DNA of 64,000 nt from Sphingomonas sp. GTDB taxonomy: Bacteria > Pseudomonadota > Alphaproteobacteria > Sphingomonadales > Sphingomonadaceae. Where the stretch lies: NCBI GenBank assembly GCA_017418975.1, contig JAFOMG010000024.1, positions 226,179 to 290,178 of the forward strand, read 5' to 3'. The notes beneath the pieces were generated by a model that searched no databases, was not told the origin of the DNA, and saw nothing but the letters and a program-made list of their open reading frames with translations. Both the position numbers and the translations under genes were made by a program. Positions 4,663 to 47,068 of the stretch are shown one piece after another. The first letter of the stretch is position 1, and every line of letters begins with the position of its first letter.

Positions 4663-5370
4663 ATGACCCGACCGGTCGCGCTCGACAATATCGCCCATGC
4701 GGATCTCCGCGTCGCGCTCCGCCACGGCGCCGCCCATGGCCATGCCGTGAACCAGGCGCTCCTCTTCCCCACCGAATTCGCCGAGGCGCAGCGCGACTTC
4801 CCCATTCTTTTCCGCCGCGAACCCGCCGAAGGGCTCCAGGCAGTCGCCCTGCTCGGGCTCGACCGTGACGAGAACCTGTTCCTCGAAGGCGATCGCTGGA
4901 CGAGCAGCCATGTTCCGCTGAGCCTCCAGCGCGGTCCCTTCCTGATCGGGCTGACCGCGGACGGCGCCGCGCCGGTGATCCAGATCGACCTCGACGATCC
5001 GCGCGTCGATGCCGAGGACGGCGAACCGCTCTTCCTGCCCCATGGCGGCCAGGCGCCCGTGCTCGATCATGTCGGCCGCCTGCTCGCGGCGATCCATGTC
5101 GGCATGGCCGATGCCGGGCCGATGTACGCCGCGTTCGACGCGCTCGGGCTGATCCAGCCGGTCACGCTCCAGCTGATGCTCGACGACGAGCGCCGCTATG
5201 CGATCTCCGACCACGAGGTCCTGGCCGCCGACCGGCTCGAGGCGCTCGGCCCGGCGGACCTCGGCGGCCTCCACCGCGCCGGCCATCTCGGCGCCGCCTT
5301 CCTGCTCGCCACGTCGCTCGGCAACATGCCGCGGCTGATCGCCCGCAAGAACGCGCGAGACGCCGCATGA
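4663..5370 (+). CDS. SapC family protein
   Basis: A 235-residue protein of the SapC family (named from Campylobacter S-layer work). In alphaproteobacteria it is common beside TonB-dependent receptors. Family features are the early HADLRVALRHG and VNQALLFPTEFAEAQRDFPI, the middle FLIGLTADGAAPVIQIDLDD, and the C-terminal AISDHEVLAADRLEALGPAD. I see no signal peptide, so where it acts is open. The start chosen is the ATG after GGAG at 4654-4657; upstream codons look like spacer. Its stop overlaps the next start by 4 bases, so it is co-translated with the cupin gene. The biochemical role of this family is unknown. Confidence 0.88.
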   Translation: MTRPVALDNIAHADLRVALRHGAAHGHAVNQALLFPTEFAEAQRDFPILFRREPAEGLQAVALLGLDRDENLFLEGDRWTSSHVPLSLQRGPFLIGLTADGAAPVIQIDLDDPRVDAEDGEPLFLPHGGQAPVLDHVGRLLAAIHVGMADAGPMYAAFDALGLIQPVTLQLMLDDERRYAISDHEVLAADRLEALGPADLGGLHRAGHLGAAFLLATSLGNMPRLIARKNARDAA

Positions 5371-24178: not shown

Positions 24179-24997
24179 GTCATAGCCAGAAGATGACGGT
24201 GGCAGCGAGGGCGATGGCGGAGAAGAACGCGGTTGGGCATCGGTCGTAGCGTGTGGCGACACGGCGCCAGTCCTTCAGACGTCCGAACATGATCTCGATG
24301 CGGTTGCGGCGACGGTAGCGGCGCTTGTCGTATTTGATAGGTTCGTTGCGCGATTTTCGGACTGGAATACAGGGCCTTACGCCTTTCTCCTGCAGCGTGT
24401 CCCTGAACCGGTCGGCGTCATAGCCCCGGTCGCCGAGCAGCCATTGCGCCTTGGGCAACTCGTCGAGCAGCGCGGCTGCGCCGATATAATCACTGACCTG
24501 GCCAGCGGTCATGAAGAAGCTCAAGGGACGGCCGTTGGCATCGGTAATGGCATGGAGCTTGGTGTTCATGCCTCCTTTGGTGCGGCCGATCAGGCGCCCG
24601 AGATCCCCCTTTTTACCGCCAGGCTCGAGGCCGTGCGGTGCGCCTTCAGATAAGTCGCGTCGATCATCACCGTCCGGCGCTCGGCGCCCGCAGAGGACAG
24701 CCCCTCCATCATCCGAGTGAAGACCCCCATCTCACTCCACCGCTTCCAGCGGTTATCGAGCGTCTTGTGCGGCTCATAATCCTTCGGCGCATCCCGCCAG
24801 CGCAGCCCGTTACGGTTCACGAAGATGATCCCGCTGAGCACCCGCCGATCATCCACCCGCGGCCTGCCGTGGCTCCTCGGGAAATACGGCGCGAGCCGCA
24901 CCATCTGCTCATCCGTCAGCCATACAGATCGCTCAAATCCAGTCTCCTCACCGAGCCTGAATCAGATCGCAGCCCTCACATCAATGGGGCCTGACCC
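24164..24997 (-). mobile_element. IS5-family insertion sequence (IS427-group-like)
   Basis: An 834-bp element with terminal inverted repeats starting GGGTCAGGACC on the left and GGGTCAGGCCC on the right. It is flanked by TA on both sides (24162-24163 and 24998-24999), the target duplication typical of this group. It carries one transposase in two reading frames on the reverse strand. It lies between doxX and the first codons of an integrase gene. Confidence 0.85.
24180..24904 (-). CDS. IS5-family transposase in two frames (programmed -1 frameshift)
   Basis: The first frame (24590-24904) reads VRLAPYFPRSHGRPRVDDRR, RWRDAPKDYEPHKTLDNRWK and VMIDATYLKAHRT, which gives the first catalytic Asp. 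It then stops. The second frame (24180-24569) gives GDRGYDADRF and RRNRIEIMFGRLKDWRRVAT, the second Asp and the Glu of a DDE transposase. The frames meet at A5G5 (24608-24617), a plausible -1 slippery site. Upstream, the usual SDLYWLTDEQ reads as SDLYG-stop because one base is missing, so the normal start is lost and translation would have to begin at an internal ATG. The copy may be inactive. Confidence 0.82.
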
Positions 24998-25037
24998 TAG
25001 GCTTGGCGTTGCGGATCGCAATATCCGAGAGGGGCAT
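24998..25037 (-). pseudogene. 5' remnant of a tyrosine integrase gene cut by the IS
   Basis: The reverse-strand ATG at 25037 opens MPLSDIAIRNAKPR, the start of the arm-binding (DUF4102) domain found in P4-type tyrosine integrases. The reading ends at the IS border. The rest of the gene is absent on the far side, where doxX begins, so sequence was deleted or rearranged. A tRNA-Leu 3' fragment lies about 165 bp upstream, the usual layout for an island integrase next to its att site. Confidence 0.7.
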
Positions 25038-25200
25038 GTGGGGGCCTTTTCCAGACGACTTGCCCGAGCCCCCCCGGCAGAGCTCCCAAAAGCCACTGGA
25101 TCGAGGCGATTGGACGCGAACAAGCCCGGTCGGCTGGGTGCCGATTTTTTCGCAGATTTCCGGGGTTTGTTCAACTGTCGCGATCATCTGCGAACAGGAA

Positions 25201-25224
25201 AATGGTGCCAGAAGAGGACTCGAA
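25201..25224. other. attL: fragment of the tRNA-Leu 3' end
   Basis: The 24 bases match the terminal 3' part of the tRNA-Leu at 47046-47132 in the same orientation, with one missing C (GGTGCC against GGTGCCC). The exact shared block is CCAGAAGAGGACTCGAA. It marks the left end of a 21.8-kb integrated element whose right end is the intact tRNA gene next to the integrase. Confidence 0.8.
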
Positions 25225-25424
25225 TATTTTCTATAAGTAGCTGTAATATAGCGATATTTCTACTTAGCAGTTCAGAAAAGCCCCTCCTTGAGCCCCAGCT
25301 GACGTGGAGATGGGACGACCTTACTGAAATACACCATCACGCAACGGCATTGATCGCGCAGCTCGCGCCCGCTTGCACCGTCCCGTTCCTCAGATTAGCC
25401 ATCGTTGACTTTTGTAGGGGTGGG

Positions 25425-26396
25425 ATGGTGCGGGTCAACAGGCCGGGTGGTACCGGAGAAATGGTGATCGAGCCTCCCTCACCTCATCCCTTGGATTTTG
25501 ATTGGCGATATGACCAGCAGACTACGGGTCGCGTCGCTCAGCTAGTTCGTTGCGAGAGCCCGGTGATCGCATTTGGCGTTCCGAGCGTTGCGCGTTTGCT
25601 GGATCGCGAAGGCACAGCCGTAACGCTGGTTGATCGGCAGCCCTTACAAGGAGTACGCAACCACCTTGTTGGTCCGGTCGAAGACTTTGACGCGGTCGCG
25701 AAATTCAGGACTGCGGTCGTTGACCCCCCTTGGTATCCACGACAACTTTTGAACTGGTCCCGTGTCGCCGCGCGGTCGGTTGGCGTCGGCGGAACAGTAT
25801 TTGTGTCGGTGTGGCCAGATAGCACACGCCAACATGCCGCGCATGAACTCGCAAGCGTTCTCGCCGATGTGTCGCGCTGGGCGAGCATTGAACGGGCCGT
25901 TACGAGGTTGGTCTACAACGAACCTGTGTTCGAAACCACTGCTCGTGCGCACGAAATGGCCCCTCAGCTCTCGCGGTCGCCCCTCGTCGGTGAGCTTGTT
26001 TGTCTCAAGGTGCGGCAGCTTCCTCATTGGATTGCCGAGCCAAAGCGGCAGGAGCAGTGGCTGAGGTTCACCGTCGATGACTATCAACTAGCTTTGCGCA
26101 TCGACACGCCCACGGCTGAGATCGGGATCTCGATTGTTGATGGTGCCAATGGGTGGGAATGGCCGTACGTCAGCGCGCGGGCACCTTGCCGGCAGCAAAT
26201 TGGCCTTTGGAGCTCCGCCGGCGAGGTAGCAGCAGTTTCGGATCCCCGGGCGCTGGCGATGAGTCTACGGAATGCATTCTTAAAAGAAGACAATACGGGT
26301 TTTGAAACAGCACTTGCTGCAACACCTGAACTTCTATCATGGCGCATCCCACGCCCGCCCTTTCGGAGATCGATTGAATGGCAGCACCGACAATAG
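25425..26396 (+). CDS. DPPW-motif protein, methyltransferase-like (defence island)
   Basis: A 323-residue protein. A Rossmann-like block (SPVIAFGVPSVARLLDREG, then VTLVDRQPL) is followed by FRTAVVDPPWYPRQLLNW. DPPW/Y after such a block is the catalytic motif of N6-adenine methyltransferases of the MT-A70 and Dam types, so a nucleic-acid methylase or a degenerate relative is likely. The C-terminal third is unassigned. AGGGG precedes this ATG, but the frame stays protein-like upstream (LIAQLAPACTVPFLRLAIVD), so a TTG at 25350 is possible. The 3' end overlaps the metallophosphoesterase gene by 19 bases. Codon use is lower-GC than the chromosome. Confidence 0.6.
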   Translation: MVRVNRPGGTGEMVIEPPSPHPLDFDWRYDQQTTGRVAQLVRCESPVIAFGVPSVARLLDREGTAVTLVDRQPLQGVRNHLVGPVEDFDAVAKFRTAVVDPPWYPRQLLNWSRVAARSVGVGGTVFVSVWPDSTRQHAAHELASVLADVSRWASIERAVTRLVYNEPVFETTARAHEMAPQLSRSPLVGELVCLKVRQLPHWIAEPKRQEQWLRFTVDDYQLALRIDTPTAEIGISIVDGANGWEWPYVSARAPCRQQIGLWSSAGEVAAVSDPRALAMSLRNAFLKEDNTGFETALAATPELLSWRIPRPPFRRSIEWQHRQ

Positions 26397-27832
26397 CTCT
26401 TCGGTTTCGCGACACCACGCCTGGTTTCGACACGATTGTCGAACACCGAGCGATGCTCGCACGGCAAGGCGTCGTCGGCTGGGGATGGTGGAAGAAGACT
26501 TTCGAACCAGATCAGCATAAGGCCATCGCAAAACGAATTGCCGAAAACGGCGAGATCGATCTTGTGATTTTGGATCGCAGCACAGAACGCGCGTTCTTGT
26601 GTCGTTGCGTTGCATTCCACCCTCCGTTCGAAGCGATCACTGCGATTGTCCCCGAATACTATAGAGACCACATCGACATCACTGCAGGCGTGTTTACCTT
26701 ACGGTCAATTGACGACATCAGCTTCGATAGGTCGCTTGGCGACCTCGTCGGCGACCAAACATTCCTATGGATCGGCTCTCAAGCGGACCGCGGCCTAGGT
26801 CATTTAGCGGCGCCTGCCGAAGCGCCAGGCAGATCATGCGTGCTGCACCTTTCCGATCTTCATTTCGGCAGCGACTATGGTTTTCGCCGACAAGGTGAGG
26901 ATCTAGCCATCGGCGATCAGCGCAGGACGCTTACGGATTGCATCGTTTCCGATCTCGATCGGCTCGGTCTTACCCAAGACATCGCGGTAATTATCGTAAC
27001 CGGCGACTTTATGACTCATGGTCGGTTTGACGATGAGCACAAGAAGGCTGCCCTTGACGAGTTTGAGGCTCTGCGAGGGAGACTGGGCTTAAGTCGAGAG
27101 CAACTGATCCCGGTCCCGGGCAACCACGACGTTGTGCGCTATGCTGACGGTGCCAAGATCAATGTGCGCGACAATGCAGTCGAGAAACAAACCACATATG
27201 AACATGAGACACACTTCCGAACCTTCGTTGACCAGTTGATCGGCAGAGACTGGAAGGCGTCTCTTAATTATGTTCGCCGAGTTCGCCTCAGTCAGATCGA
27301 CCTAGATGTGTGTGTTGTGAACTCATGCACAATCGCGGCAACCGAATGGACTGAATACGGCTATGTCGGAAAGAGCGGAATTGATGCGATTACCGATCTA
27401 GGCGAACAGGCAGTCGAACGACCGACATTCAGGTTCTTGGCACTCCATCACCACCTTCTTCCGGTAGCCAATGTCGAAGCATTGAAGTCAAAAGGCGTGA
27501 CGCTAACGCTGGATGCCTCAGACATTTTGGCCGCGGGCCAGCAGTCGGGTGTTCATGTCGCGTTACATGGTCACCAACACAAAGCGAAGATAGCAAAATA
27601 CCAGAGCCTTGGCCTCAACGGTGAACCGACAAATGAACCAATCTACGTCGTGGCCAACGGAAGTGCCGGAGCCAAGAACAATCGGCTTCCGGCTGGTGAG
27701 CTAAATACCTACTGCCTTTTTCGGCTGAAGGCTGATGGGCTCGACCTCTGGATCCGAGAGCTACGCCTGGATGCGCGCGCCGGTGCGGAGATATTTAGTG
27801 GTTCGCTCACGGCCTTGCCCATCGCATTGTAG
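26378..27832 (+). CDS. metallophosphoesterase with an N-terminal unknown domain (defence island)
   Basis: A 484-residue protein. Residues 1-145 form an unassigned domain (VVGWGWWKKTFEPDQHKAIA, IDLVILDRSTERAFLCRCV). From about 150 the calcineurin-like metallophosphoesterase motifs occur in order: LHLSDLHFG (155), GDFMTHG (209), PGNHDVV (246), LHHHLLP (355) and HGHQHKAKIAK (397). These bind two metals and hydrolyse phosphodiesters, possibly nucleic acid or nucleotide signals. The gene overlaps the DPPW-motif gene, so the pair is one unit. Placed among restriction systems on an integrative element, a defence role is likely but unproven. Confidence 0.83.
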   Translation: MAAPTIALRFRDTTPGFDTIVEHRAMLARQGVVGWGWWKKTFEPDQHKAIAKRIAENGEIDLVILDRSTERAFLCRCVAFHPPFEAITAIVPEYYRDHIDITAGVFTLRSIDDISFDRSLGDLVGDQTFLWIGSQADRGLGHLAAPAEAPGRSCVLHLSDLHFGSDYGFRRQGEDLAIGDQRRTLTDCIVSDLDRLGLTQDIAVIIVTGDFMTHGRFDDEHKKAALDEFEALRGRLGLSREQLIPVPGNHDVVRYADGAKINVRDNAVEKQTTYEHETHFRTFVDQLIGRDWKASLNYVRRVRLSQIDLDVCVVNSCTIAATEWTEYGYVGKSGIDAITDLGEQAVERPTFRFLALHHHLLPVANVEALKSKGVTLTLDASDILAAGQQSGVHVALHGHQHKAKIAKYQSLGLNGEPTNEPIYVVANGSAGAKNNRLPAGELNTYCLFRLKADGLDLWIRELRLDARAGAEIFSGSLTALPIAL

Positions 27833-27839
27833 CTAAGCC

Positions 27840-28139
27840 TCAGCCAGTTTTCCGCCCACCAGTCGCCACTCCGGCTAATTGCATAAGCTCCATGCATTCG
27901 CGCCGGATCGACGCCGCTAGAGCTTGCATTCGCCAAGCGATTTGCTCCTCTTGGAGCGGCTCGATCTGTGATGTCAGCCAAGTTTCCATCCGCTCACGCA
28001 AATCGGCGGACAGGATCACCTTCCCGCTCATCACCTTGCTGTAGTGGCCCTGCGTGATCTCGAACGCGCTTGCCAGCTGTGACTGTGACAAGCGCATCTT
28101 GAGGCGAGCGTGCTCAACCCTCTCTCGTGGATCAATCAT
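27840..28139 (-). CDS. XRE-type helix-turn-helix regulator
   Basis: A 99-residue DNA-binding protein. The helix-turn-helix is RLKMRLSQSQLASAFEITQG followed by HYSKVMSGKVILSADLRERM. The C-terminal helix may dimerise. The start is the ATG before IDPRERVEHA; the upstream extension runs through a palindrome and is rejected. The gene is divergent from the glycosylase-QueC operon. GAATGCATTTATGCATTC sits between them, so it probably represses that operon and itself. Confidence 0.8.
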   Translation of the reverse strand: MIDPRERVEHARLKMRLSQSQLASAFEITQGHYSKVMSGKVILSADLRERMETWLTSQIEPLQEEQIAWRMQALAASIRRECMELMQLAGVATGGRKTG

Positions 28140-28163
28140 TGCGATCGGAATAAATGCATAATA

Positions 28164-28181
28164 GAATGCATTTATGCATTC
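28164..28181. promoter_or_regulatory. palindromic operator between the XRE regulator and the glycosylase operon
   Basis: GAATGCATTTATGCATTC has perfect 8-bp arms around TT. A further half-site, AAATGCATAAT, begins at 28153. The palindrome covers the glycosylase start codon (28174) and lies 25-42 bp before the regulator start, so one bound protein could block both genes. Confidence 0.62.
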
Positions 28182-29007
28182 TCTACCTAGCCCGTCAACG
28201 CAGCAAATTTGCACTTACAGGGACGGCGAGCTGGTCCGGCTTACATTGCCATCCGCGAAACGGCGGATCGCAGGACACGACCTCGCTTGGGGGCGCATCG
28301 AAGAAATCGGAAGCCCTGCTTATTGGACAGCACAGGCATGGATGTGGGAGATTGAGGAACCCGATCACTATCGTTTGGGGCGCTCCCTTAGGGAGGAAGT
28401 CCTCGCCTGCATCCTCGGCGGTTACGGCATCCCCGCGGAGGTAGGGTTAGCGGCCTACGGGCGGCTTCGCGCCGTTCCCGCAGAAGAGCTGTATAGCCAG
28501 GCAACCGTTGAAGCCTTGCTAAGCAAGCCGTTGACAGTTGCTGGGCGCAGCGTGCGTTACCGTTTCGCAGGCCAGAAGGCGCGACATGTGTCCGCTTCCA
28601 TGGCAGCCCTCAATGCGATCAATGAGGAGGCCCCGGACCGCGATTTGCGAAACGCGCTCGTCGCATTACCAGGCATCGGTCCGAAGACCGCCTCTTGGGT
28701 CGTCCGCAATTGGCGCAGCAGCGACCATGTATCTATTCTGGACGTGCATATCATCCGAGCCTGCCGGGCGCTCGGCCTCTTCCAGCAGTCGTGGCGAGTC
28801 GAACGCCACTATACGCTCATGGAGGATGCCTATCTCACGTTCGCCCAAGCGGTCGGTGCGCGTGCCTCGATCCTCGACTCCGTCATGTGGATGACGATGC
28901 GTCAGCTTCCAGCGTCTATCATCGAGAACATGGTCTCTAATGGTGCAAATAAGTTCTACAAAAGACAGTTAAACGCCATCGACAGCGAACAGATGTCCCT
29001 GATATGA
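28174..29007 (+). CDS. OGG-like helix-hairpin-helix DNA glycosylase/lyase
   Basis: A 277-residue protein with the HhH-GPD hallmark of 8-oxoguanine glycosylases. The hairpin is LPGIGPKTASWVVRNW, with Lys171 as the expected Schiff-base residue. SILDVHIIRACRALGLF follows, with Asp190 as the catalytic acid. It should remove a modified base and nick the strand. OGG-like proteins also occur with QueC-like proteins in type IV CBASS, and a QueC-like gene lies three genes downstream here. The ATG lies inside the operator and has no ribosome site, so translation may be leaderless. It is the first gene of the six-gene operon. Confidence 0.82.
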   Translation: MHSLPSPSTQQICTYRDGELVRLTLPSAKRRIAGHDLAWGRIEEIGSPAYWTAQAWMWEIEEPDHYRLGRSLREEVLACILGGYGIPAEVGLAAYGRLRAVPAEELYSQATVEALLSKPLTVAGRSVRYRFAGQKARHVSASMAALNAINEEAPDRDLRNALVALPGIGPKTASWVVRNWRSSDHVSILDVHIIRACRALGLFQQSWRVERHYTLMEDAYLTFAQAVGARASILDSVMWMTMRQLPASIIENMVSNGANKFYKRQLNAIDSEQMSLI

Positions 29008-29044
29008 CCCTTCTAAACCGTTTAAGGTTACTTGGGGGGATACT

Positions 29045-29431
29045 ATGTCTGGCGGCGGTGGCGGGCGTGATGACGACTATACTCCAACCCCTGCGCCGGT
29101 AAGGCCGAGCAATCCTGGTTCAGGTGGCGGTGATAACGGTGGCGAGGGCGGCATAGACCCGTGCGACATTGTCGAGATTGTGCCATTGAATAGCCCGCAG
29201 CCGTCGGTAATTGCCACACTCACAGTGGGTGACGTGCTGATCGTCAACCTCAACCGATCGGGCCCTAATCCAGTTCTAGAAGTACTTGCATCAGGCGGCC
29301 GCCGCGCGGGCGCCCTTACTCACAGAAACCACGTTCGCATTATCGGATGCATCGACTCGGGTAGAACGTATCAAGCCGTCGTTATGAGTATTAGAGGTGG
29401 TTCCGTGGAAGTGCGGGTGGAGCCTGCATGA
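29045..29431 (+). CDS. small Gly-rich-N-terminus protein of the QueC-like operon
   Basis: A 128-residue protein starting MSGGGGGRDDDYTPTPAP. A Gly/Pro-rich linker to about residue 38 is followed by a compact beta-like domain: DPCDIVEIVPLNSPQP, IATLTVGDVLIVNLN, VRIIGCIDSGRTYQAVVM and GGSVEVRVEP. The two Cys (DPCD, IGCID) are far apart. No catalytic motif is seen. A flexible Gly-rich N-terminus beside a QueC-like enzyme suggests a protein substrate for N-terminal modification, which is inference. GGGGGGA precedes the ATG. The stop overlaps the next start by ATGA. I do not know a named family. Confidence 0.72.
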   Translation: MSGGGGGRDDDYTPTPAPVRPSNPGSGGGDNGGEGGIDPCDIVEIVPLNSPQPSVIATLTVGDVLIVNLNRSGPNPVLEVLASGGRRAGALTHRNHVRIIGCIDSGRTYQAVVMSIRGGSVEVRVEPA

Positions 29432-30618
29432 CGACCGTCGCGGGCGGACTCTATCTCGAGCGGTGCATTGAGCCGCGGTGGGACGACGTCTACGGATCCG
29501 GAGGTCGAGCAGCGGCAGCGCTCAGCGCGGCAGTGCCAGGCATCAAGCTCATGACTTACAGGCCCACTTCACTAGAAGACGGCGAAGCAAGCCTTAAATC
29601 CGCCTACGGCATCTCGATCGATGGCCCCGTGGTCGAGGCAGAGATTACCTTCGATTACTTTCATACTTTAGCTACGCCGAAGATAACGCCGCGACCGGAT
29701 GCGATCATCCGCTGCGAGCCGTTTGAGGTTGCCGATGATGTGGTTCTCCGTTTTGGCATGTTGGAGGGCGATGCCCGCGTTAGAGCGCGCACAGCGGTCT
29801 ACGACCCGCAGTCCGCCTTCGATCCCCGACCATTCGCGGAGAACGGTTCAAAAGCCGACCGCGTTGCCCTGATCCTCAATCGCCTCGAAGCACGTCGCTT
29901 CTCTGGAGAAAACGACCCCGAACGGGGCATCGAAATCCTGCTAGCCCGTGGCGAGGCGGACGTAATAGTTTTGAAGATGGGCGGCCACGGAGCCCTAGTG
30001 GCGACCAAGGAAGGCCGCTGGACTGTTCCCGCGTACCGAAGCGATACCGTCTTCAAGATTGGATCGGGCGACGTGTTCTCCGCCGCCTTCACCCAATTCT
30101 GGGCGCTGGAAGGGAGAACCCCAGCCGAATCCGCAGATTTCGCCTCACGCGCGGTGAGCCAATACGTCAACACCAGAAGCCTCCCGATCTCTAGCGCGAA
30201 CGAACTCTTGGGAATCGACGCCGAACCGATCAACCCTGGTAAGGGCCGCATCTACCTCGCAGCACCATTCTTCAATCTCGCGGAGCGATGGATAGTCGAG
30301 GAAATCCGCAACCAGCTTATGACGATGAATGTACCGGTGTTCTCACCGCTCCACGATGTCGGCGAAGGTCCGGGCGAGGTTGTTGCTCCACTGGACCTAA
30401 AAGGTCTCGACGAATGCCAGGCCGTACTCGCCATTTTGAATGGCACTGATGCCGGCACCGTATTTGAGGTCGGCTACGCCGTCGCGCGGGGGACGCCGGT
30501 CGTAGCGCTGGCGCAGAACATGCGCCCCGAAGACGTGAAGATGCCCGCTGGCACCGGTTGCCGTATTGTCGATGATCTCGTCTCGTCAATATACCATGCG
30601 ATCTGGGCACTGCCATGA
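29428..30618 (+). CDS. PfkB-like kinase fused to a nucleoside 2-deoxyribosyltransferase domain
   Basis: A 396-residue two-domain protein. Residues 1-265 are ribokinase/PfkB-like: VIVLKMGGHGALVATKEG, then KIGSGDVFSAAF with the catalytic Asp215. From 273 a nucleoside 2-deoxyribosyltransferase domain follows (GRIYLAAPFFNLAERWIVEE, VFSPLHDVG, GTVFEVGYAVARGTPVVALA). Such domains cleave or transfer the glycosidic bond of (deoxy)nucleosides. Fusion to a kinase suggests handling of one nucleoside-type substrate in sequence. Both ends overlap neighbouring genes by 4 bases. The N-terminal lid of PfkB is shorter than usual. Confidence 0.83.
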   Translation: MTTVAGGLYLERCIEPRWDDVYGSGGRAAAALSAAVPGIKLMTYRPTSLEDGEASLKSAYGISIDGPVVEAEITFDYFHTLATPKITPRPDAIIRCEPFEVADDVVLRFGMLEGDARVRARTAVYDPQSAFDPRPFAENGSKADRVALILNRLEARRFSGENDPERGIEILLARGEADVIVLKMGGHGALVATKEGRWTVPAYRSDTVFKIGSGDVFSAAFTQFWALEGRTPAESADFASRAVSQYVNTRSLPISSANELLGIDAEPINPGKGRIYLAAPFFNLAERWIVEEIRNQLMTMNVPVFSPLHDVGEGPGEVVAPLDLKGLDECQAVLAILNGTDAGTVFEVGYAVARGTPVVALAQNMRPEDVKMPAGTGCRIVDDLVSSIYHAIWALP

Positions 30619-31208
30619 AGGCGGTATTGTTATCAGGCGGAATGGATTCAATCGCTCTCACTTTCTGGCAAAAGCCGGATTTCGTCATCACCATTGACTA
30701 CGGACAGCGGGCCGCATCAACGGAGCTTGAGGTGGCGGCACAGGTCGCTCACTCCCTCGGGATTCAGCATGAAGTGATCCACGTCGATTGCTCGTCGCTT
30801 GGCTCCGGCGACATGTCGGGGCGCCCAGCGTCAATGCACGCCCCGGTCTCCGAGTGGTGGCCGTTCCGGAACCAACTTTTGCTGACTCTAGGAGGCATGC
30901 GCTCAATCGCCATCGGCGCTAAGGAGATGATGTTAGGATCTGTCGCATCCGATGAGAGCCATGCCGATGGCCGAATTGAGTTTTTCAAACTGATCAACGG
31001 ACTGATGGCAATGCAAGAGGGGGCGATCCACGTGACTGCCCCCGCCATCCAAATGTCCACGGTCGAACTTGTGCAACACTCTGGTGCACCTCGAGAGCTG
31101 ATCGCTTGGGCGCACTCGTGCCATACCGGCACGTTGGCGTGCGGAGGGTGCAGGGGCTGCACTAAGCACTATAATGTAATGAAGGAACTCTATGGCGAAC
31201 CGTACTGA
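30615..31208 (+). CDS. QueC-like (7-cyano-7-deazaguanine synthase family) protein
   Basis: A 197-residue protein with the ATP-pyrophosphatase PP-loop SGGMDSIAL (7-15), DYGQRAASTELEVAAQVA, PFRNQLLLTLGG and the zinc motif CHTGTLACGGCRGC near the end. All are QueC hallmarks. Chromosomal QueC makes preQ0 for queuosine. This one lacks queD/E/F neighbours and sits in a defence island with an OGG-like protein, a pairing known from type IV CBASS, where the QueC homologue is reported to modify proteins with a deazaguanine. A defence-type role is therefore more likely than housekeeping. It overlaps the genes on both sides. Confidence 0.85.
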   Translation: MKAVLLSGGMDSIALTFWQKPDFVITIDYGQRAASTELEVAAQVAHSLGIQHEVIHVDCSSLGSGDMSGRPASMHAPVSEWWPFRNQLLLTLGGMRSIAIGAKEMMLGSVASDESHADGRIEFFKLINGLMAMQEGAIHVTAPAIQMSTVELVQHSGAPRELIAWAHSCHTGTLACGGCRGCTKHYNVMKELYGEPY

Positions 31209-31905
31209 CGGTGAGCCAGTCCCGAGAACAGGCGTCAGCGCTTATAGGCGGCCCTTCGGACTACCATCCTCCGTCTCGCTTCCCCGGACCATCGACCGGC
31301 CTGACATAGGGTTCTTCGACGTTCTCGATGCCCGGCGATCATCGACGGGAGGATCGCTTCCAATCGATCAGCTGTCGTCCCTCCTTTGGCACGTGATGCG
31401 GCTTCGCAATCGGCGCCCAGGCCGGTTCGGTATCGGGCGTGAAAGCAGATCTGCTCCATCGGCTGGTGGCCTGCATCCGATCAAGCTTCTCATCCTTCCG
31501 ATCGACGGGCTTGATGCTGGCGCCTATGACGATCATCAACATGCGCTGACCCCGATCGAGCTGTCCGCGCTCGGGCTGAATCGAACCAGCATCGCAGAAA
31601 TCCTTGCCGTCGATACAGGAACAACCATCCAGTTCGCCGCAGACGCAGAACTTGTGGCCGCCTGCTATGAGAATCCGGAATCGCTAGTCTGGCGGGACGC
31701 TGGTGCGCTCGTGGCCACAATGTGCTTGGTAGCTACAGCCCTGAAGCTCACTGCGACACCGGTCGGTCGGATCGGCGACGCGATCGTCAGGGCCGCCGGC
31801 TTGCCGGAAGGGTTCATCGGCGCCGGGGCTGTGCATGTCGGCGGCGTGCCCATCGCGACAGGTGCCGGGCAGCCCAACCTAGACGATGCGAAAGGAATGG
31901 AATGA
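31192..31905 (+). CDS. SagB/ThcOx-type nitroreductase-family oxidoreductase
   Basis: A 237-residue flavoprotein of the SagB/ThcOx branch of nitroreductases. FMN-binding and dimer motifs are DVLDARRSSTGG, PIDQLSSLLWHV, RSAPSAGGLHPIKLLIL and WRDAGALVATMCLVATALKL. Members oxidise azolines in peptide natural products or reduce small molecules. Its place between a QueC-like and a dGTPase gene is unusual. It might oxidise or reduce the product of the QueC step. It overlaps the QueC gene by 17 bases and the dGTPase gene by 4. Confidence 0.8.
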   Translation: MANRTDGEPVPRTGVSAYRRPFGLPSSVSLPRTIDRPDIGFFDVLDARRSSTGGSLPIDQLSSLLWHVMRLRNRRPGRFGIGRESRSAPSAGGLHPIKLLILPIDGLDAGAYDDHQHALTPIELSALGLNRTSIAEILAVDTGTTIQFAADAELVAACYENPESLVWRDAGALVATMCLVATALKLTATPVGRIGDAIVRAAGLPEGFIGAGAVHVGGVPIATGAGQPNLDDAKGME

Positions 31906-33242
31906 GTTGGCTCGAACGACGCGAAAACTGGAATCCTCAGCGTGAGGACGCACGTGACGATGCCGACATCGACTATGCTCGCATCATCCACTCGTCTTCT
32001 TTCCGAAGGCTTCAGGGCAAGACCCAAATCCTGAATCTGGGCGATAGCGACTTTTACAGGACGCGGCTGACCCACAGCCTAGAAGTAGCACAAATTGCCG
32101 GTGGCATTGCGCGGCAGTTTGCAAAAGATGATCCGCACGGATCCGCCGCCGCGTATCTGCCAAGCCTCAGCCTCATTCAGGCTGCAGGGGCAACTCATGA
32201 TCTCGGCCATCCCCCGTTCGGACATGGAGGCGAAGTAGCGCTGAATTACTGCATGCGGGATCACGGTGGGTTCGAGGGTAATGGGCAAACTCTACGTATC
32301 GTCTCTCGCCTAGAGAAGTTCTCAGACAGTGCAGGCGCCAACCTCACTCGGCGTACGCTGCTAAGCCTTCTCAAATATCCAGTCTCCTACAGCCGTGCTA
32401 ATAACCTCGAGCGAGCGCCGAGCCTCGAAACCGAGCCCAAGAGCATCCGGATCATCAATCGCGAGACATCAAAGCCGCCAAAGTGCTTTTTCGACAGCGA
32501 GCAGGATGTGGTCGATTGGATACTGCAACCGCTGGGTGATAAGGAACGAGAACTCTTCACCAGTTTCGAGGCAGTGGCTCAAAAGCACAACAAGGCAATC
32601 CATAAATCCTTCGACTGCAGCATTATGGATTTGGCCGACGACATTGCCTTCGGAGTACACGACCTTGAAGATGCCCTGAATCTCAATCTAATCGAGGAGA
32701 AGGAATTTAGGCGAATAGTTCCCGAGGAGCGCTGCACCAGCTTTCTGGACAAGCTCAAGGAGAAGTACCCCGAAGAGACAGGCAACAACGTCTACGAGAC
32801 CTTCGTCGACAAGCTTTACCGCGGCGGGCGGCTGCGCAAACGCTACATTAGCCGAATGGTACACCACCTAATCACGAGCTGTCGTATCCGTGAGATTGAG
32901 GGCTTCGACGAGCCACTCGTACGATTCCGCGCATATATGGAAGATGGTCCTGCCGAGTTCCTTTCAGCACTTAAAGATGTGGTCCGTGAGCGTGTGATTC
33001 TTGATCCTTCTGTGCAGCAATTGGAGTTCAAGGGGCAACGTATGGTCGTGGCCGTGTTCGAGGCATTCTCCTCTGAACCCAAGTCCCTTCTACCGCGCGA
33101 AACATACGCGCGCTGGGAGCTGGCCGACGATAAGCCGCGCGTAATCTGCGATCACATCGCCGGGATGACTGACAGTTTCCTGTTGAAGACTTATGATCGA
33201 TTCTTCTCGCCCCGCATGGGCTCCGTTTTCGATCGAATCTGA
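31902..33242 (+). CDS. antiphage-type deoxyguanosinetriphosphate triphosphohydrolase (dGTPase)
   Basis: A 446-residue HD-domain dGTPase. It begins SWLERREN and carries IIHSSSFRRLQGKTQILNLG, TRLTHSLEVAQIAGGIARQF (His58), ATHDLGHPPFGHGGE (the HD pair, 99-100) and SIMDLADDIAF (the later metal Asp). The form with FRRLQGKTQI and DFYRTRLTHS matches the dGTPases reported to starve phages of dGTP. It is the last gene of the operon, joined by an ATGA overlap. Together with the nucleoside transferase it points to guanine-nucleotide depletion or rerouting on infection. It converges with hsdM. Confidence 0.9.
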   Translation: MSWLERRENWNPQREDARDDADIDYARIIHSSSFRRLQGKTQILNLGDSDFYRTRLTHSLEVAQIAGGIARQFAKDDPHGSAAAYLPSLSLIQAAGATHDLGHPPFGHGGEVALNYCMRDHGGFEGNGQTLRIVSRLEKFSDSAGANLTRRTLLSLLKYPVSYSRANNLERAPSLETEPKSIRIINRETSKPPKCFFDSEQDVVDWILQPLGDKERELFTSFEAVAQKHNKAIHKSFDCSIMDLADDIAFGVHDLEDALNLNLIEEKEFRRIVPEERCTSFLDKLKEKYPEETGNNVYETFVDKLYRGGRLRKRYISRMVHHLITSCRIREIEGFDEPLVRFRAYMEDGPAEFLSALKDVVRERVILDPSVQQLEFKGQRMVVAVFEAFSSEPKSLLPRETYARWELADDKPRVICDHIAGMTDSFLLKTYDRFFSPRMGSVFDRI

Positions 33243-39197: not shown

Positions 39198-40778
39198 CTA
39201 CGTGCGCGCTTCACGCACACCCTTGCGGGGCATGAGCGACGAGACAAGCCTCTCACCGAGCGCTGGATCATCAATCAGGAGAAGACCCATACCCCACTCT
39301 TCGAGGAAATCCTCCCTGCCGAAGCGCTGACAGGTACCGCTGATCGCGGGCACAAGAAGGTACCCGCCATCCGCCCGTGAAACGCGCAAATCAGGGCTGC
39401 GCCAGGCAAGGCTATCTCTATACACGTGCATGGATTGGAGTGCATCGTTGATGGATTCCGGCGCCGTGCGGTATTTGGCGTCCAGCAACACCCAATGCTG
39501 CAATTGCCCTCCGTCGAACAGCGCGAGGCAAAAGTCAGGGTACCTTACCGTCGTAATGCTGATAGGCCCGCTATCAGCTCGGCCGAACCGCTGCTGATAG
39601 TACAGCTCCCACCGCAGCCCGGATGGATGGCTCGCATGCCAGCACTTACCTTCAGCGGGACTGGATAACACGTGCCCCTGGATTGGTTTGCGCTCAAACC
39701 TCCAGCTATCGCCAAGCGCTTGCTCCAGCCCCTCGAGAAGGCGGTAGAGGCTGTAGATCTCGAATAGGTCCCAGGAACGTCGGAGACTGGCCGCCAGGCC
39801 GCCATTGTCATTGATGCTAAGCCCAGGGTCGAGGAGGCGGCGCGCAAGCTTGGCGAAGCGCCCATAGGCGGGGTGGTCGGCAAAAACCTGCACGACACCT
39901 TCCGTCATCTCGCCAGGCTGTAATTCGCGTAGCACAGGGTGCATCAACGCCTCGCTCAGGCGTGTCGCCGCCCGCCGGGTCTCGCTCGCGAGATGGAGCG
40001 CACGATTCTTCTCCTGCGCGCCCAGAAGGCCACCAGCCGCATATTTCACCAGTGAGTCCGCAGTATGATGAAATGACGCACGTAAGCGTTTGAGCACCGC
40101 CACGACATATCGATTGGCCGGATGATCGAACGTTGCCTTGCGCCGATGCTGTGGCACGGCCACTCGCCTATCGCCTGCGCGCATTTGACGCAGGCGCGAT
40201 GGGCGCGACGCCAACCAATTAATTGTACCAGATGTCGCCTGCGAAGATCGTAGCGGTTCAACGACAGTCGCCCGGCGATGGCTTAGCACTGGTTCTCGCA
40301 GCAGCTGTTCGAGCTGCTCAAGGAGCGGCCGCAAGTAATGGTTTATGAGGACAGGGTGGGTCGTCCCAAGCCGCACACCCGCAGCCTCGTCAGCGCTCGA
40401 CAGCCCAGGAGAGAGGCCCCAGGGCAGCTGCGAGCCGTATTCAATGATGCGATTGAGCATCACCTGATATTGGTCGTCGGAATACTTGCTCCCGTTTGGA
40501 CGCGTCTCGATGTCCAGATAAATTGGGGCGCCCTCGGTTACCACCGAGAGCGTCGTTCGACCGCACCAACTTTCGCTCTGATAGATCCATCGCCAAGACA
40601 GACCCGCTTCCGTAATCGATACTTCAGGCACCCCGAGACTAGCACCGTCCATAAGCACATCAGGCCGCGCACTCCGCCCATGCGAGGTCGCCACCTCTAT
40701 CTCGAGGCGCTCATATTCGGTCAGCCTGACGTGCCGTCCGTTCAGCACCTCGCCGTTCAAGCGAAGCGTTACACTCAT
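39198..40778 (-). CDS. McrC-like DUF2357 nuclease (type IV restriction partner)
   Basis: A 526-residue protein. The N-terminal DUF2357 region covers MSVTLRLNGEVLNGRHVRLT to about 250, and a middle helical part follows (RRSWDLFEIYSLYRLLEGLE). A PD-(D/E)XK nuclease domain has TVRYPDFCLALFDGG and WVLLDAKYRTA near residue 433. This is the McrC arrangement: the nuclease cuts when driven by the GTPase or ATPase partner. It overlaps the McrB-like gene by 4 bases. The pair would restrict DNA carrying modified bases. Confidence 0.85.
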   Translation of the reverse strand: MSVTLRLNGEVLNGRHVRLTEYERLEIEVATSHGRSARPDVLMDGASLGVPEVSITEAGLSWRWIYQSESWCGRTTLSVVTEGAPIYLDIETRPNGSKYSDDQYQVMLNRIIEYGSQLPWGLSPGLSSADEAAGVRLGTTHPVLINHYLRPLLEQLEQLLREPVLSHRRATVVEPLRSSQATSGTINWLASRPSRLRQMRAGDRRVAVPQHRRKATFDHPANRYVVAVLKRLRASFHHTADSLVKYAAGGLLGAQEKNRALHLASETRRAATRLSEALMHPVLRELQPGEMTEGVVQVFADHPAYGRFAKLARRLLDPGLSINDNGGLAASLRRSWDLFEIYSLYRLLEGLEQALGDSWRFERKPIQGHVLSSPAEGKCWHASHPSGLRWELYYQQRFGRADSGPISITTVRYPDFCLALFDGGQLQHWVLLDAKYRTAPESINDALQSMHVYRDSLAWRSPDLRVSRADGGYLLVPAISGTCQRFGREDFLEEWGMGLLLIDDPALGERLVSSLMPRKGVREART

Positions 40779-43180
40779 GACCAGAATCGAGCTTGCCCGG
40801 AGTCTTTAAGGCTATCAGACATCTGTTGAATCTTGTGAGCTGCACGCGGGAACCTCGTCGCCGGCGTTGCAGCGGCGAGCGCCGTCAGAGCCTGCTCAAG
40901 TGGGCCAGAATCGTCACCACGTATCCTTGGCAGGACCTTCATGAGGGTCGCACTATCGAGCAGGCTTTCAATCGCGAGCGCGGCGGATCCAGCCTCGCAA
41001 TAAGCCAGCACTTCGTCGGCCGTCCGATAACCGAAGTGTCGCCGCGCAGGATACAGGGCAGAATAGAGCGCTTGCAGGTGCTGCGCGACTTGATCGACGA
41101 TGGTCGCGTCAGCGCCGTCGGCGTGCTTGCTAGTTTTCCAAGCTGCCAGATCCACATCCCAGAACTCGAATGTGAACGCTCGATCTAGAACCTTGTCCGA
41201 GAACGGATGAGTAGACTCATCCATATTCACGGTTCCGAAAATGAAGAGGTTCTCGGGCCAAGCTATGCGTGGTTGCACATTGTCGATGGCATCCATTTCC
41301 CCATGCAACGCCAACGTGCCGGCCGCGCCCTCCATCGCCGAGAGAAAAGGAGCGAAGTAGTGCTCTACGCGCGCCAGGTTCATCTCATCCAAGCACAGGA
41401 AGTACGGTCGCGTGCGGTCAGCGTCCGCGGCCAGTAGAAGGTGCAGCGCCTCGGCGGCCTGAAAGGAAGGGGGGTCCGCGATCGAGTTGACGAAGCCAAG
41501 TAGGCCAGTGGGATCCGTCCAATCAGGGCGAACCGCAATTTGCGCATAGCGACTACGCCAATCGCCGAGCCCTAAAGCGCGGCAATATGCCTCAGCGAAT
41601 GCGCGTGCGACGGATGTTTTGCCAGTACCCGATAGGCCGGCGAGGAGAACAAAGCGTTTGTGATCACTCGCGTGCAGGGCGGCGTGAAGCTCGGCGAGCA
41701 GGCCCTCTGGCAGAATGAGGCGTGATGAGAGCTCACCATCGTCGAAGCGGGCTTGAAACTTGGCCCACTCGGCGGGCACAAATTTGGGAGGCGTAATGGC
41801 CGCCTGCGCGGGCTCACTGGCCTCGCCTTCTGACTGCGACGCGTCGTCCTCTGTCGGGGCTACCAGCTTCCATTCATCGAGGAAGTTGGAGGGCAGAGCC
41901 TCGGCATATGCCGCGCCCTCTTCCGTGAGGATTACCTGCGTGCCCTCTTGCCGCGCCAGTCGAGCAGAGCACGCCCACTGTAAAAGTTCGCCGCCAGCCC
42001 AACGACTCGTGCGGGTTGGAACGAGCTTGGAAAGTTCATCGACAAGCGCCTTCTTGTCCGCACCGTCTGGCTTATCCTTTACCGCCATCAATAGCTGACC
42101 GATGCCAAAGATACGACCGATGAGAAGCGGTTGCAGGACTTGAACAGGGTCCGGAGTCGAGAGAAGTTCTAACCCCCGGTCGGTCGGTCGATAAGCACCA
42201 TCCCTCAGACCAATCAGCGCCAGCCCGCCTTGTGCCTGCGAGATGACGTTCGAGGCGCTGCCTTGTGCTTTGAGTTGTGGCGCCTCCCGCTGGATCGCGG
42301 AAATGAGGTCGTTTCTACTAACACCTTGCTCAGCCTCACGCACGATCGCGACAAGGAGTGAAACGTTATCCGATACGTACACCAACCCCTTGCGCTGAAC
42401 GCTTGCCGGCAAAAGCGATAGCATTGGCGCATCAGTCGCGCGTGCTGAGGGTGCCACCAGCACAGCCCCTTCATCGGGCTTTTGGAAATTGCGCTCCCAC
42501 AAGAACCAACTGAAAATCGATTGCTCGACATCGGCCTCCAGCGACGGAGGCGTGCCCAGGATTTCGCGCAGCCGCTCACGCAACCTCGGATGCTGCGCGA
42601 TATACTCTGCCTTTAGCGAGCGAACTCCAACCAGCTGTAGCACTTGCCAAAGCTTGCGATCTTCGATGATGCACGAGACGTCTGAGGGGAAAAGGCTACC
42701 TAGCAAGCGCACTAACCGGGCTTTGGGACGGCGCGCATTATAGGGCTGCACGGCGAGGAGGGTTCTATCGTAGAGCGCCTGAAGTGCTGCACCCCGCTTT
42801 TCAACAGAGAGCTTCGGAATGGTCTGCCATGCGTCATAAAGCGCCTCTGCGAGCGCCGTGTCGGTGTACGCGCCGTTGACTGTAACCGACCGGCCCGGTC
42901 CGATAGTGGTGACCGCATCGCTGTCCCAAAGCAGTTCCTGGAACGCGGACGTCATCCACTCGTCTCGAGTGGTTGATTGGACGCGCTTAACGTGGGCTAG
43001 ATAATTCGCTCGCCAATCCGCCCACTCGCCGGTGGCGATTAACGCGGCGAAATCCCCTTCATATGCTTTGCGTATCGCAGTGTCGTCGAGTGTCACCAAG
43101 CCCCCGCTACTTCGATCCCCATCCGCACGCAGCTTGTGCAGAACGTGCCCGTTGCAGTCATATAAGCGCGTCAGTGCCAC
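40775..43180 (-). CDS. McrB-like AAA+ ATPase/GTPase (type IV restriction)
   Basis: An 801-residue AAA+ protein. An N-terminal helical region of about 450 residues may recognise modified DNA. The motor follows: FVLLAGLSGTGKTSVARAFA (Walker A near 520), YFLCLDEMNLARVEHYFAPF (Walker B near 597) and FGTVNMDESTHPFSDKVLDR with the McrB-type sensor. The DEMNLARVE motif is characteristic of McrB. The start is a GTG, because an in-frame stop lies four codons upstream. It overlaps the McrC-like gene, and the two form a reverse-strand operon. Confidence 0.87.
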   Translation of the reverse strand: MALTRLYDCNGHVLHKLRADGDRSSGGLVTLDDTAIRKAYEGDFAALIATGEWADWRANYLAHVKRVQSTTRDEWMTSAFQELLWDSDAVTTIGPGRSVTVNGAYTDTALAEALYDAWQTIPKLSVEKRGAALQALYDRTLLAVQPYNARRPKARLVRLLGSLFPSDVSCIIEDRKLWQVLQLVGVRSLKAEYIAQHPRLRERLREILGTPPSLEADVEQSIFSWFLWERNFQKPDEGAVLVAPSARATDAPMLSLLPASVQRKGLVYVSDNVSLLVAIVREAEQGVSRNDLISAIQREAPQLKAQGSASNVISQAQGGLALIGLRDGAYRPTDRGLELLSTPDPVQVLQPLLIGRIFGIGQLLMAVKDKPDGADKKALVDELSKLVPTRTSRWAGGELLQWACSARLARQEGTQVILTEEGAAYAEALPSNFLDEWKLVAPTEDDASQSEGEASEPAQAAITPPKFVPAEWAKFQARFDDGELSSRLILPEGLLAELHAALHASDHKRFVLLAGLSGTGKTSVARAFAEAYCRALGLGDWRSRYAQIAVRPDWTDPTGLLGFVNSIADPPSFQAAEALHLLLAADADRTRPYFLCLDEMNLARVEHYFAPFLSAMEGAAGTLALHGEMDAIDNVQPRIAWPENLFIFGTVNMDESTHPFSDKVLDRAFTFEFWDVDLAAWKTSKHADGADATIVDQVAQHLQALYSALYPARRHFGYRTADEVLAYCEAGSAALAIESLLDSATLMKVLPRIRGDDSGPLEQALTALAAATPATRFPRAAHKIQQMSDSLKDSGQARFWS

Positions 43181-45503: not shown

Positions 45504-45674
45504 GTGAATAGGATTAGCTACAACATCAACGAAGTCGCCTCGATGCTCGGGCTCGGTCGCACGACCATCTACAAGCTCATCGACGAAGGTAAGCTGGCCC
45601 GAGTGAAGGTCGGCGCGCGCACCCTGATCCTCGCGCGTGACGTGGATGCGCTGCTTCAGCGCCAGGCGGCCTGA
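45504..45674 (+). CDS. AlpA/excisionase-family helix-turn-helix protein
   Basis: A 56-residue MerR-like HTH_17 protein: SYNINEVASMLGLGRTTIYK, then LIDEGKLARVKVGARTLILA. Such proteins act as excisionases or as activators of integrase genes on islands. The start is a GTG after GAGAAG; upstream codons are not protein-like. The integrase begins 13 bases after the stop, so the two are probably one transcript. Confidence 0.82.
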   Translation: MNRISYNINEVASMLGLGRTTIYKLIDEGKLARVKVGARTLILARDVDALLQRQAA

Positions 45675-45687
45675 TCGAGCGGCACGC

Positions 45688-46983
45688 ATGACACTCTCCG
45701 TCAAAGAGATCGAGCACGCACGCCCGTCGGAGCGCAACCGGAAGCTGTGGGATGAGAAAGGTCTGTACCTGCTCATCACCCCTTCCGGCTCCCGGCGCTG
45801 GCATTTCAAATATCGCTTCCTTGGCTCCGAGAAGAAGCTCAGCTTCGGGGCGTATCCCGAGGTCACGCTGAAGGCCGCACGTGCGAAACGCGACGAGGCG
45901 CGCACTATGCTCGCTGAGGACAGGGATCCGTCGCGGGAGCGGCAGGCCAAGAAGTTGGCCGCGAAGGTCGAGGCCGAGAACACCTTCAGCTCAATCGCCC
46001 GCGAGTTCATCGAGAAGCGTGCCGCGGACGGGATCGCCGACACAACCAAATCGAAATCCGAGTGGCTTCTGTCGATCCTCGAGCCGCGTCTGGGCCGCAT
46101 GCCGGTTGCCGACATTACCGCGCCGGTATTGCTCGCCGTCCTCAAGGAGGTACAGGCCTCGGGCCGCCGAGAGACCGCGAGGCGCCTGCGTGCCTTCGCG
46201 AGCCGCGTCATCGACTATGCGGTGATCACCGGGCGCGCGCAGCACAATCCGGCGAAGGCGTTGCAGCGGGCACTGATCACGCCGACCGTTCGGCATCACC
46301 CTGCCATTATCGATCCGGAGAAGCTCGGTGGGCTGCTGCACGCGATAGACGCCTATCCGGGCTACCCATCGACAATCGCGGCCCTGCGGCTCTCTCCGCA
46401 TCTCTTCCAGCGCCCTGGCGAGATCCGAAGCATGCGGTGGGACGAACTGGACCTCGATCGCGCACGCTGGATCATTCCGGAGGGCCGTACCAAGATGCGG
46501 CGGGCGCATGAAGTCCCACTGTCCCGGCAGGCATTGGAGATCATCCGATCGATGACACCGATCTCGGGATGCTCCGAGTTGGTATTCCCTGCATTCCATT
46601 CGATGAGGACGCCGATCTCGGAGAACACCGTGAACGGCGCGCTGCGACGGCTGGGCTATGCCGGGATCATGACCGCGCACGGCTTTCGCTCGACCGCCAG
46701 CTTGCTGTTAAACGAAAGTGGCAACTGGCCGCCGGATGTCATCGAACACGCCCTGGCGCACCAGGACAAGAACGCCATCCGCGCGATCTACAACCGCACC
46801 TCCTACTGGAACGTTCGGGTCGAGATGATGCAGGCCTGGAGCGACCAGTTGGACGCCCTGAAAAAGCAGGCTGCGGGGCTACCGGAGGGGCCAAAAAGCG
46901 AGGCCCCCAAAAGGCCCCCAGCGGAGCCCCGAAAGGCCCCCACTCGCACGCGAACGACCGCGGACCCGGCGGGTCGCACCTAG
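45688..46983 (+). CDS. tyrosine recombinase/integrase of the tRNA-Leu element
   Basis: A 431-residue P4-type integrase. The N-terminal arm-binding DUF4102 domain is KLWDEKGLYLLITPSGSRRW, then FKYRFLGSEKKLSFGAYPEV. A SAM-like core-binding domain occupies about 105-185. The catalytic residues are Arg in GEIRSMRW (near 243), HGFR (near 331), His in EHALAHQ (near 355) and the nucleophile Tyr in IRAIYNRTSYW (near 367). The tail after 395 is Pro/Lys-rich. Its 3' end is about 60 bp from the tRNA-Leu att site, so it is the enzyme that inserted the 25.2-47.05 kb element. Confidence 0.93.
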   Translation: MTLSVKEIEHARPSERNRKLWDEKGLYLLITPSGSRRWHFKYRFLGSEKKLSFGAYPEVTLKAARAKRDEARTMLAEDRDPSRERQAKKLAAKVEAENTFSSIAREFIEKRAADGIADTTKSKSEWLLSILEPRLGRMPVADITAPVLLAVLKEVQASGRRETARRLRAFASRVIDYAVITGRAQHNPAKALQRALITPTVRHHPAIIDPEKLGGLLHAIDAYPGYPSTIAALRLSPHLFQRPGEIRSMRWDELDLDRARWIIPEGRTKMRRAHEVPLSRQALEIIRSMTPISGCSELVFPAFHSMRTPISENTVNGALRRLGYAGIMTAHGFRSTASLLLNESGNWPPDVIEHALAHQDKNAIRAIYNRTSYWNVRVEMMQAWSDQLDALKKQAAGLPEGPKSEAPKRPPAEPRKAPTRTRTTADPAGRT

Positions 46984-47043: not shown

Positions 47044-47068
47044 AATGGTGCCCAGAAGAGGACTCGAA
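47044..47068. other. attR: tRNA-Leu 3' end copy of the attachment site
   Basis: This is the part of the intact tRNA-Leu gene that is repeated at 25201-25224, including CCAGAAGAGGACTCGAA. It forms the right border of the integrated element. Confidence 0.78.

Follow-up and report, generated by a model that had tools for sequence, protein, structure and literature searches.

The operon and its conserved core

A 64,000-nucleotide stretch of Sphingomonas sp. contig JAFOMG010000024.1 (termed "the window") carries six genes at positions 28174 to 33242 that include a QueC-like enzyme and a small Gly-rich protein. An earlier note on this DNA read the six genes as one operon and possibly an undescribed defense system. 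The six open reading frames (ORFs), with their starts and overlaps, were as that note had described them, and family searches concurred with its assignments (Ogg-HhH, PfkB plus Nuc_deoxyrib_tr, QueC, nitroreductase/SagB, and the anti-phage dGTPase NF041026). We found that five of the six genes belong together and that the dGTPase is a recurrent add-on, and we regard protein tagging by the QueC-like enzyme as the probable function. The features are as follows.

28174..29007, + strand: OGG-like HhH DNA glycosylase/lyase (OGG; Ogg-HhH, 41.3 bits)
29045..29431, + strand: Gly-rich protein, here named GLY; MSGG N-terminus, low-confidence tail (residues 1-40), HIRAN-like domain (41-128), proposed acceptor
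29428..30618, + strand: PfkB-type kinase fused to nucleoside 2-deoxyribosyltransferase (PfkB-NDT; PfkB 44.9 bits, PF05014 60.9 bits)
30615..31208, + strand: QueC-like ATP-dependent ligase of PF06508 cluster 4 by motifs and tree; 197 amino acids (QueC, 88.4 bits)
31192..31905, + strand: SagB-like nitroreductase-fold flavoprotein (Nitroreductase 26.7 bits, cut-off 23.5; TIGR03605 52.3 bits, under the cut-off of 78.4)
31902..33242, + strand: anti-phage-type dGTPase, accessory (NF041026 544.6 bits, cut-off 400; best PDB match 9p8w, E 7e-110)
27840..28139, - strand: divergent XRE-family regulator, about 99 amino acids from the ATG at 28139 (weak HTH_3 match, E 3.3e-4)
28154..28179, no strand: operator of three ATGCAT sites, at 28154, 28166, and 28174, with a 12/8-bp spacing seen again in other loci

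By ORF coordinates, a gap of 37 bp separates OGG from GLY, and the remaining operon genes overlap at their ends. Relatives were collected with the QueC-like protein as the query against one genome per species (84,980 GTDB species), which gave 81 relatives, and 80 loci were retained. Profile searches placed QueC in all 80 loci, PfkB-NDT in 77, GLY in 71, SagB in 58, and OGG in 57. The nine loci without GLY are contig ends (L010, L058, and L063) or are broken or rearranged upstream (L013, L014, L030, L055, L067, and L080). Some of the loci in which SagB (22 of 80) or OGG (23 of 80) was not found are also truncated; intact Bacteroidota loci are included among the latter. From Proteobacteria to haloarchaea, GLY, PfkB-NDT, and the QueC-like gene follow one another in the same order, either adjacent or with overlapping ends. 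The dGTPase stands directly 3' of SagB or QueC in only a few loci (L011, L012, and L084) and is accessory, present in a minority of operons. Thus, the six genes as a single conserved unit did not hold up.

By record title, the hosts span Pseudomonadota, Myxococcota, Acidobacteriota, Actinomycetota, Bacteroidota, Verrucomicrobiota, Planctomycetota, and others. Plasmids contributed 24 further records, haloarchaea and one cyanobacterium among them; 14 of these regions were retrieved, and OGG was not found in three haloarchaeal plasmid loci. The operon was chromosomal in 18 of 5,426 complete Escherichia coli genomes, and each of the four E. coli loci examined had recombinase genes near it and a dGTPase gene close by. 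Four of 14 loci from IMG/VR were close relatives (49-53% identical). Five of 250 other species of the window's genus carry the system, while in the order of one host (G043) none of the 395 other genomes had the locus (1/396 being G043 itself). A phage collection gave 64 records; among the 20 matches listed, identity was below 30%, several were annotated QueC, and none was a clear cluster-4 member. Such a distribution is typical of a mobile system that occurs sporadically.

GLY and the QueC-like enzyme

GLY had no Pfam or PADLOC match at E ≤ 1 and only a chance-level NCBIfam match, and its profile found nothing among PDB sequences at E ≤ 10. Its N-terminus is conserved, with Ser, Gly, Ala, Cys, or Thr at residue 2 followed by an almost invariant Gly. 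Residue 2 was Ser (Thr in L004) in 66 of 66 loci with SagB, compared to a split of 11 with Ser and 12 with Gly, Ala, or Cys among the 23 loci without it; these counts exclude L030, L036, L067, L080, L096, and L101, of which L036 and L101 are contig-edge loci. Fisher's test for SagB versus Ser/Thr at residue 2 gave a p of 5.7e-9, uncorrected and ignoring kinship. A phylogenetic test gave three supported independent pairs (seven on the best tree), never in the opposite direction, and was not significant. The N-terminus control (38 of 1,494 genes) used the first start codon of each ORF, a rule unlike that applied to GLY, and was repeated with a single rule for both.

The AlphaFold2 model of GLY comprises a low-confidence tail (residues 1 to 40) and a confident HIRAN-like domain (residues 41 to 128), and VIA-align of this model returned matches to HIRAN domains. 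The C-terminal half is therefore predicted to have the HIRAN fold. GLY looks like the acceptor protein, a point absent from the earlier note. In two haloarchaeal GLY proteins (L090:6116-6772 and L091:6143-6775), the C-terminal domain appears by eye twice in tandem. An IMG/VR contig (L100:6292-9369) holds a SagB-less operon with an MGGS GLY; the genes next to it resemble, by eye, lysis and UmuC/D-type genes.

The window QueC-like protein has an SGGMDS loop and the zinc motif C169-H170-x5-C176-xx-C179-x-G181-C182-x-K184. By SGGxDS, CH-x5-CxxCxGCxK, and its PfkB plus PF05014 neighbor, it corresponds to cluster 4 of Libby et al. (PMC13329287). Its YGQ is separated from Glu37 by five residues, one fewer than in the cluster 4 motif as printed in that paper, YGQ-x6-E (PMC13329287). 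Two features common to Cap9, [YF]GQ-x5-E without the His and GxGx[LMI], were each found in 94 of 98 cluster-4 rows; among 12 canonical QueC rows, the GxG motif occurred in none, and YxQxHxxE was kept in 10. The base pocket reads HxDG in 96 of the 98 cluster-4 rows versus YxDC in the 12 canonical rows. The canonical count used 12 of 14 fetched rows, leaving out L129, a QueC-family row of unclear kind, and L130, which we rejected as canonical QueC and which is a second cluster-4 copy in Bosea.

In a 50-row tree without L096 (Azospirillum) and the decayed loci L030, L067, and L080, cluster 4 formed one clade (support 99/97) separate from canonical QueC. With both YxQxHxxE and YPDC replaced and the clade separate, a canonical queuosine-pathway QueC was ruled out. 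The Azospirillum relative (L096:5602-8585) has an altered P-loop, SGGVESS, and a GLY without the MSG start; by eye, a QueE-like ORF lies nearby (4953-5336, - strand).

In 51 host genomes (G000 and those that carry 50 of the 80 loci), we looked for genes of 7-deazaguanine supply: QueC, PTPS/QueD, Vut_1, and QueE. QueE was present in 43. In four of the eight hosts without it (G003, G009, G043, and G046), a gene for a Vut_1 queuosine-precursor transporter lies no more than about 3 kb from the operon QueC, and two others (G008 and G032) have a canonical QueC. Six actinobacterial hosts (G041, G044, G045, G047, G048, and G049) had no other QueC match and carry queE and queD beside the operon. In the window's own genome, canonical QueC and QueE are neighbors. 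Overall, these supply genes would fit 7-carboxy-7-deazaguanine (CDG) as the substrate, and from them we infer the use of a deazaguanine compound, as the earlier note had suggested. A gene of the queuosine-precursor transporter family follows SagB in some loci (L085:9314-9853 and L006:11212-11850).

Genomic island, accessory genes, and regulation

The operon sits in a 21.9-kb island (25208-47068) at tRNA-Leu(cag), bounded by a 17-bp terminal repeat at 25208-25224 with its twin copy at 47052-47068 inside the tRNA gene. The island integrase lies at 45637-46983. G+C content is 0.55-0.63 over 24 to 54 kb and 0.66-0.70 across most other parts of the window; thus, the low stretch extends beyond the island. 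Other cargo includes a type I restriction system, of which a convergent restriction-modification (RM) gene follows the dGTPase, and a McrBC-like-looking pair of DUF2357/PD-(D/E)XK and AAA genes (39198-43180), with the AAA protein matching PADLOC PDC-M26A. A phosphoesterase with a Pua-like N-terminus (26378-27832) comes near the anti-phage family DS9_1 (403.9 bits, cut-off 420). Together with the sporadic spread, these findings support a defense-island setting and mobility. Upstream of the phosphoesterase, a 523-amino-acid ORF (24825-26396) had no family match.

OGG K171 and D190, at the positions that are catalytic in Ogg, were invariant in 68 of 68 rows. PfkB D215 (88/88), N151 and E154 (86/86 each), and NDT E347 (91/91) were likewise invariant, and D215 and E347 also stand at catalytic-type places.

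Nine of the 51 hosts had a dGTPase gene no farther than 10 kb from the QueC gene, where 0.26 was expected from 61 dGTPase genes (p of 1e-11, which ignores kinship and the general clustering of defense genes). Eight of these nine hosts have another dGTPase copy elsewhere. In E. coli H6 (L114:14998-17197), a dGTPase and an NTase recognized by eye form a Clover-like pair beside the QueC operon, near a tRNA-Sec gene and a recombinase; PADLOC did not recognize the NTase-like partner. E. coli H5, from which Clover was cloned (PMC12265719), carries this operon's QueC. Taken together, the dGTPase is a frequent companion of the operon, variable in type and place. Dam is found within three genes of the core in 8 of 102 loci. 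In L094 (8591-9310), a gene annotated as a restriction endonuclease overlaps the QueC stop codon in the usual place of SagB, and in L050 a PADLOC candidate nucleotidase lies upstream of GLY. Two family-less proteins that are alike by eye (L049:10578-11306 and L062:4546-5193) stand directly 3' of QueC in loci without SagB and OGG.

The divergent XRE gene of the earlier note (27840-28139, - strand) is present, with three ATGCAT sites as its proposed operator. The OGG ATG falls within the third site, so the position of this start codon is uncertain. The 12/8-bp arrangement recurred in 6 of 21 loci examined (L001, L003, L005, L007, L011, and L012), some of them near-copies, was 11/8 bp in L029, and was absent from the remaining loci of the 21. 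Of 102 loci sampled, 27 had a member of the window regulator's XRE family no more than three genes from the core.

Proposed mechanism, rival readings, and known systems

Attachment of a nucleobase to a protein is known from one system, reported in 2025, and has been proposed for another (PMC11996544 and PMC13279940). We believe that this operon is probably a mobile third QueC protein-tagging defense system, in which CDG would be placed on the N-terminus of the HIRAN-like protein and then elaborated or read by NDT-PfkB and SagB. We infer the antiphage role and each chemical step from the observed gene conservation, N-terminal motif, predicted fold, QueC motif features, supply linkage, and mobility. 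Once the start Met has been removed, the QueC-like enzyme would activate CDG with ATP and join it to the amino group of GLY residue 2. The HIRAN fold, carried by HLTF and Rad5, is described as binding single-stranded 3' DNA ends and forks; thus, the HIRAN-like domain would take the tagged tail to intermediates of replication or recombination. The NDT domain, of base-exchange glycosyltransferase fold, may bind or glycosylate the tethered base, the role of the TGT-fold Cap10 in CBASS, and the PfkB domain may phosphorylate the product. SagB, where present, would oxidize the tagged Ser end, e.g., from oxazoline to oxazole. The OGG, Dam, nuclease, or dGTPase genes that vary around the core may act as DNA- and nucleotide-directed executors.

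Two elaborations are held with less confidence. The second step of QueC activates an amide oxygen, and so the acylated Ser could close to an oxazoline that SagB oxidizes, which we offer tentatively and consider rather doubtful. Quite unlikely, but specific, is a protein-borne deoxynucleotide: CDG on the HIRAN tail would receive deoxyribose from NDT, phosphate from PfkB, and an oxazole from SagB, and would be shown at phage replication ends for poisoning or crosslinking, with the dGTPase lowering competing dGTP and OGG excising the analogue from host DNA.

Several observations weigh against protein tagging. Residue 2 of GLY is mostly Ser, unlike the Gly of the two known systems. The HIRAN-like label rests on the predicted fold because sequence comparison failed: hhalign to four HIRAN sequences gave a probability of 0.5% (E 0.11), and PF08797 (HIRAN) was not matched by GLY in Pfam at E ≤ 1. 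The x5-E spacing is not unique to Cap9 and cluster 4, as L129 has it too. In the phylogenetic comparison with Cap9 proposed earlier, Cap9 fell on the cluster-4 side of the same tree (98/96), as one long-branch row that the program flagged as unsure, so no firm grouping resulted. No Cap9 relative was found on plasmids with a 75-amino-acid fragment as the query, which is why the tree has a single Cap9 row. By profile, Cap9 and QueC 2pg3 were about equally near (56.4 versus 56.3 bits). Since the pocket Tyr of YPDC is His in cluster 4, the base might differ from CDG. Two of the 51 hosts, both metagenome-assembled genomes, had no 7-deazaguanine source (G012 only a sub-cut-off Vut_1, G040 nothing), and searches for QueD (PF01242, PTPS) gave no match in 16 of the 51, one of which is the window's own genome.

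The published neighborhood analysis of cluster 4 suggests purine salvage (PMC13329287). In this reading of Libby et al., which extends to modified bases, the QueC-like enzyme and PfkB-NDT would process free deazaguanine or deoxyguanosine compounds, with GLY incidental. The kept PfkB and NDT residues speak for it, and nearby queD, queE, and transporter genes fit it as well. However, it fails to account for GLY, which has a conserved N-terminus and a HIRAN-like domain and was found in 71 of 80 loci, or for the islands, plasmids, and sporadic spread, and we judge it unlikely. We give a slimmer chance to the sensing and excision of phage 7-deazaguanine DNA, in which OGG would cut modified guanines, NDT and the QueC-like enzyme would process them, and dGTP depletion would follow. 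Phages with deazaguanine DNA exist (PMC6884629), the OGG residues K171 and D190 are invariant, and Dam and nuclease genes lie near the core in some loci. Yet OGG was not found in 23 of the 80 loci, intact Bacteroidota loci included, nor in the three haloarchaeal plasmid loci. Since several hosts hold supply genes beside the operon, the base would not come only from phage.

SagB relatives (family TIGR03605) serve azole ribosomally synthesized and post-translationally modified peptides (RiPPs), and in a pathway of this kind the Gly/Ser-rich tail would become an azole peptide (a microcin-like toxin) through cyclization and oxidation by the QueC-like enzyme and SagB. The Ser/Thr bias at residue 2 with SagB (66/66 versus 11/23) would suit such a pathway. 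We find it improbable, as there was no YcaO match among the window operon proteins, the C-terminal half of GLY is a confidently predicted HIRAN-like domain rather than a leader peptide, no SagB was detected in 22 of the 80 loci, some of which are truncated, and the deazaguanine supply genes would go unexplained. That unrelated defense genes merely gathered in islands is scarcely credible for the operon as a whole. The dGTPase does vary in type and place, and in H6 it has a by-eye NTase partner as in Clover, so such gathering may apply to this gene; for the three-gene core, the conserved adjacent or overlapping order from Proteobacteria to haloarchaea speaks against it.

If protein tagging is correct, a third system with a different, HIRAN-like acceptor and with NDT, PfkB, and SagB would make QueC protein tagging a general immune chemistry and give an unassigned enzyme cluster a testable function. 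The role of the tag is a tractable question because E. coli copies exist and the acceptor is a small protein.

PADLOC, one of the defense-system searches named in the earlier note, matched only QueC and the dGTPase among the six operon proteins. The novelty suggested there holds only in part: a July 2026 paper described the QueC/PfkB-NDT pairing as PF06508 cluster 4 and read it as purine salvage, with the same enzyme family, CH-x5-CxxCxGCxK, and PfkB/PF05014 neighbor (PMC13329287). For cluster 4, sections 4 and 9 of that paper mention neither the Gly-rich/HIRAN partner nor SagB, OGG, or a link to queD/queE and transporter genes (PMC13329287). Among the papers listed by searches of the open-licence PMC library, only Libby et al. 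connects QueC with PfkB or deoxyribosyltransferase in such a context, and the DefensePredictor main text is without PfkB, deazaguanine, dGTP, deoxyribosyl, and nitroreductase.

As in Clover, the operon has a dGTPase of the anti-phage family, and a Clover-like pair was seen by eye in L114 (PMC12265719). Unlike Clover as described there, the window dGTPase is followed by the convergent type I RM gene with no NTase (CloB), and a dGTPase is present in a minority of operons, so the window operon is not a Clover system. QatC was proposed to tag QatB in qatABCD as Cap9 does its partner (PMC13279940). Membership in qatABCD was ruled out: QatC is about 400 amino acids, with extensions and a Thr/Thr pocket, compared to 197 here, QatB is helical, and the KAP ATPase and TatD (QatA and QatD) were not matched among the operon proteins.

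In the type IV cyclic-oligonucleotide-based antiphage signaling system (CBASS), Cap9 joins a 7-deazaguanine base to the cGAS/DncV-like nucleotidyltransferase (CD-NTase) (PMC11996544 and PMC13279940). Neither a CD-NTase (PADLOC, Pfam, and NCBIfam) nor a Cap10-like tRNA-guanine transglycosylase (TGT) was found among the operon proteins and scanned neighbors, in agreement with the earlier note, and membership in type IV CBASS was ruled out. Here, the partner is HIRAN-like, NDT-PfkB stands in the place of Cap10, SagB is extra, and the pocket is HxDG rather than YxDC. The likeness lies in a QueC-family enzyme near the size of Cap9 (197 amino acids compared to a reported median of about 185; PMC13329287) that shares the SGGxDS loop, [YF]GQ-x5-E, the GSG and RN motifs, and the zinc cysteines, together with a partner with a small-residue/Gly N-terminus and a second enzyme of base-exchange fold alongside.

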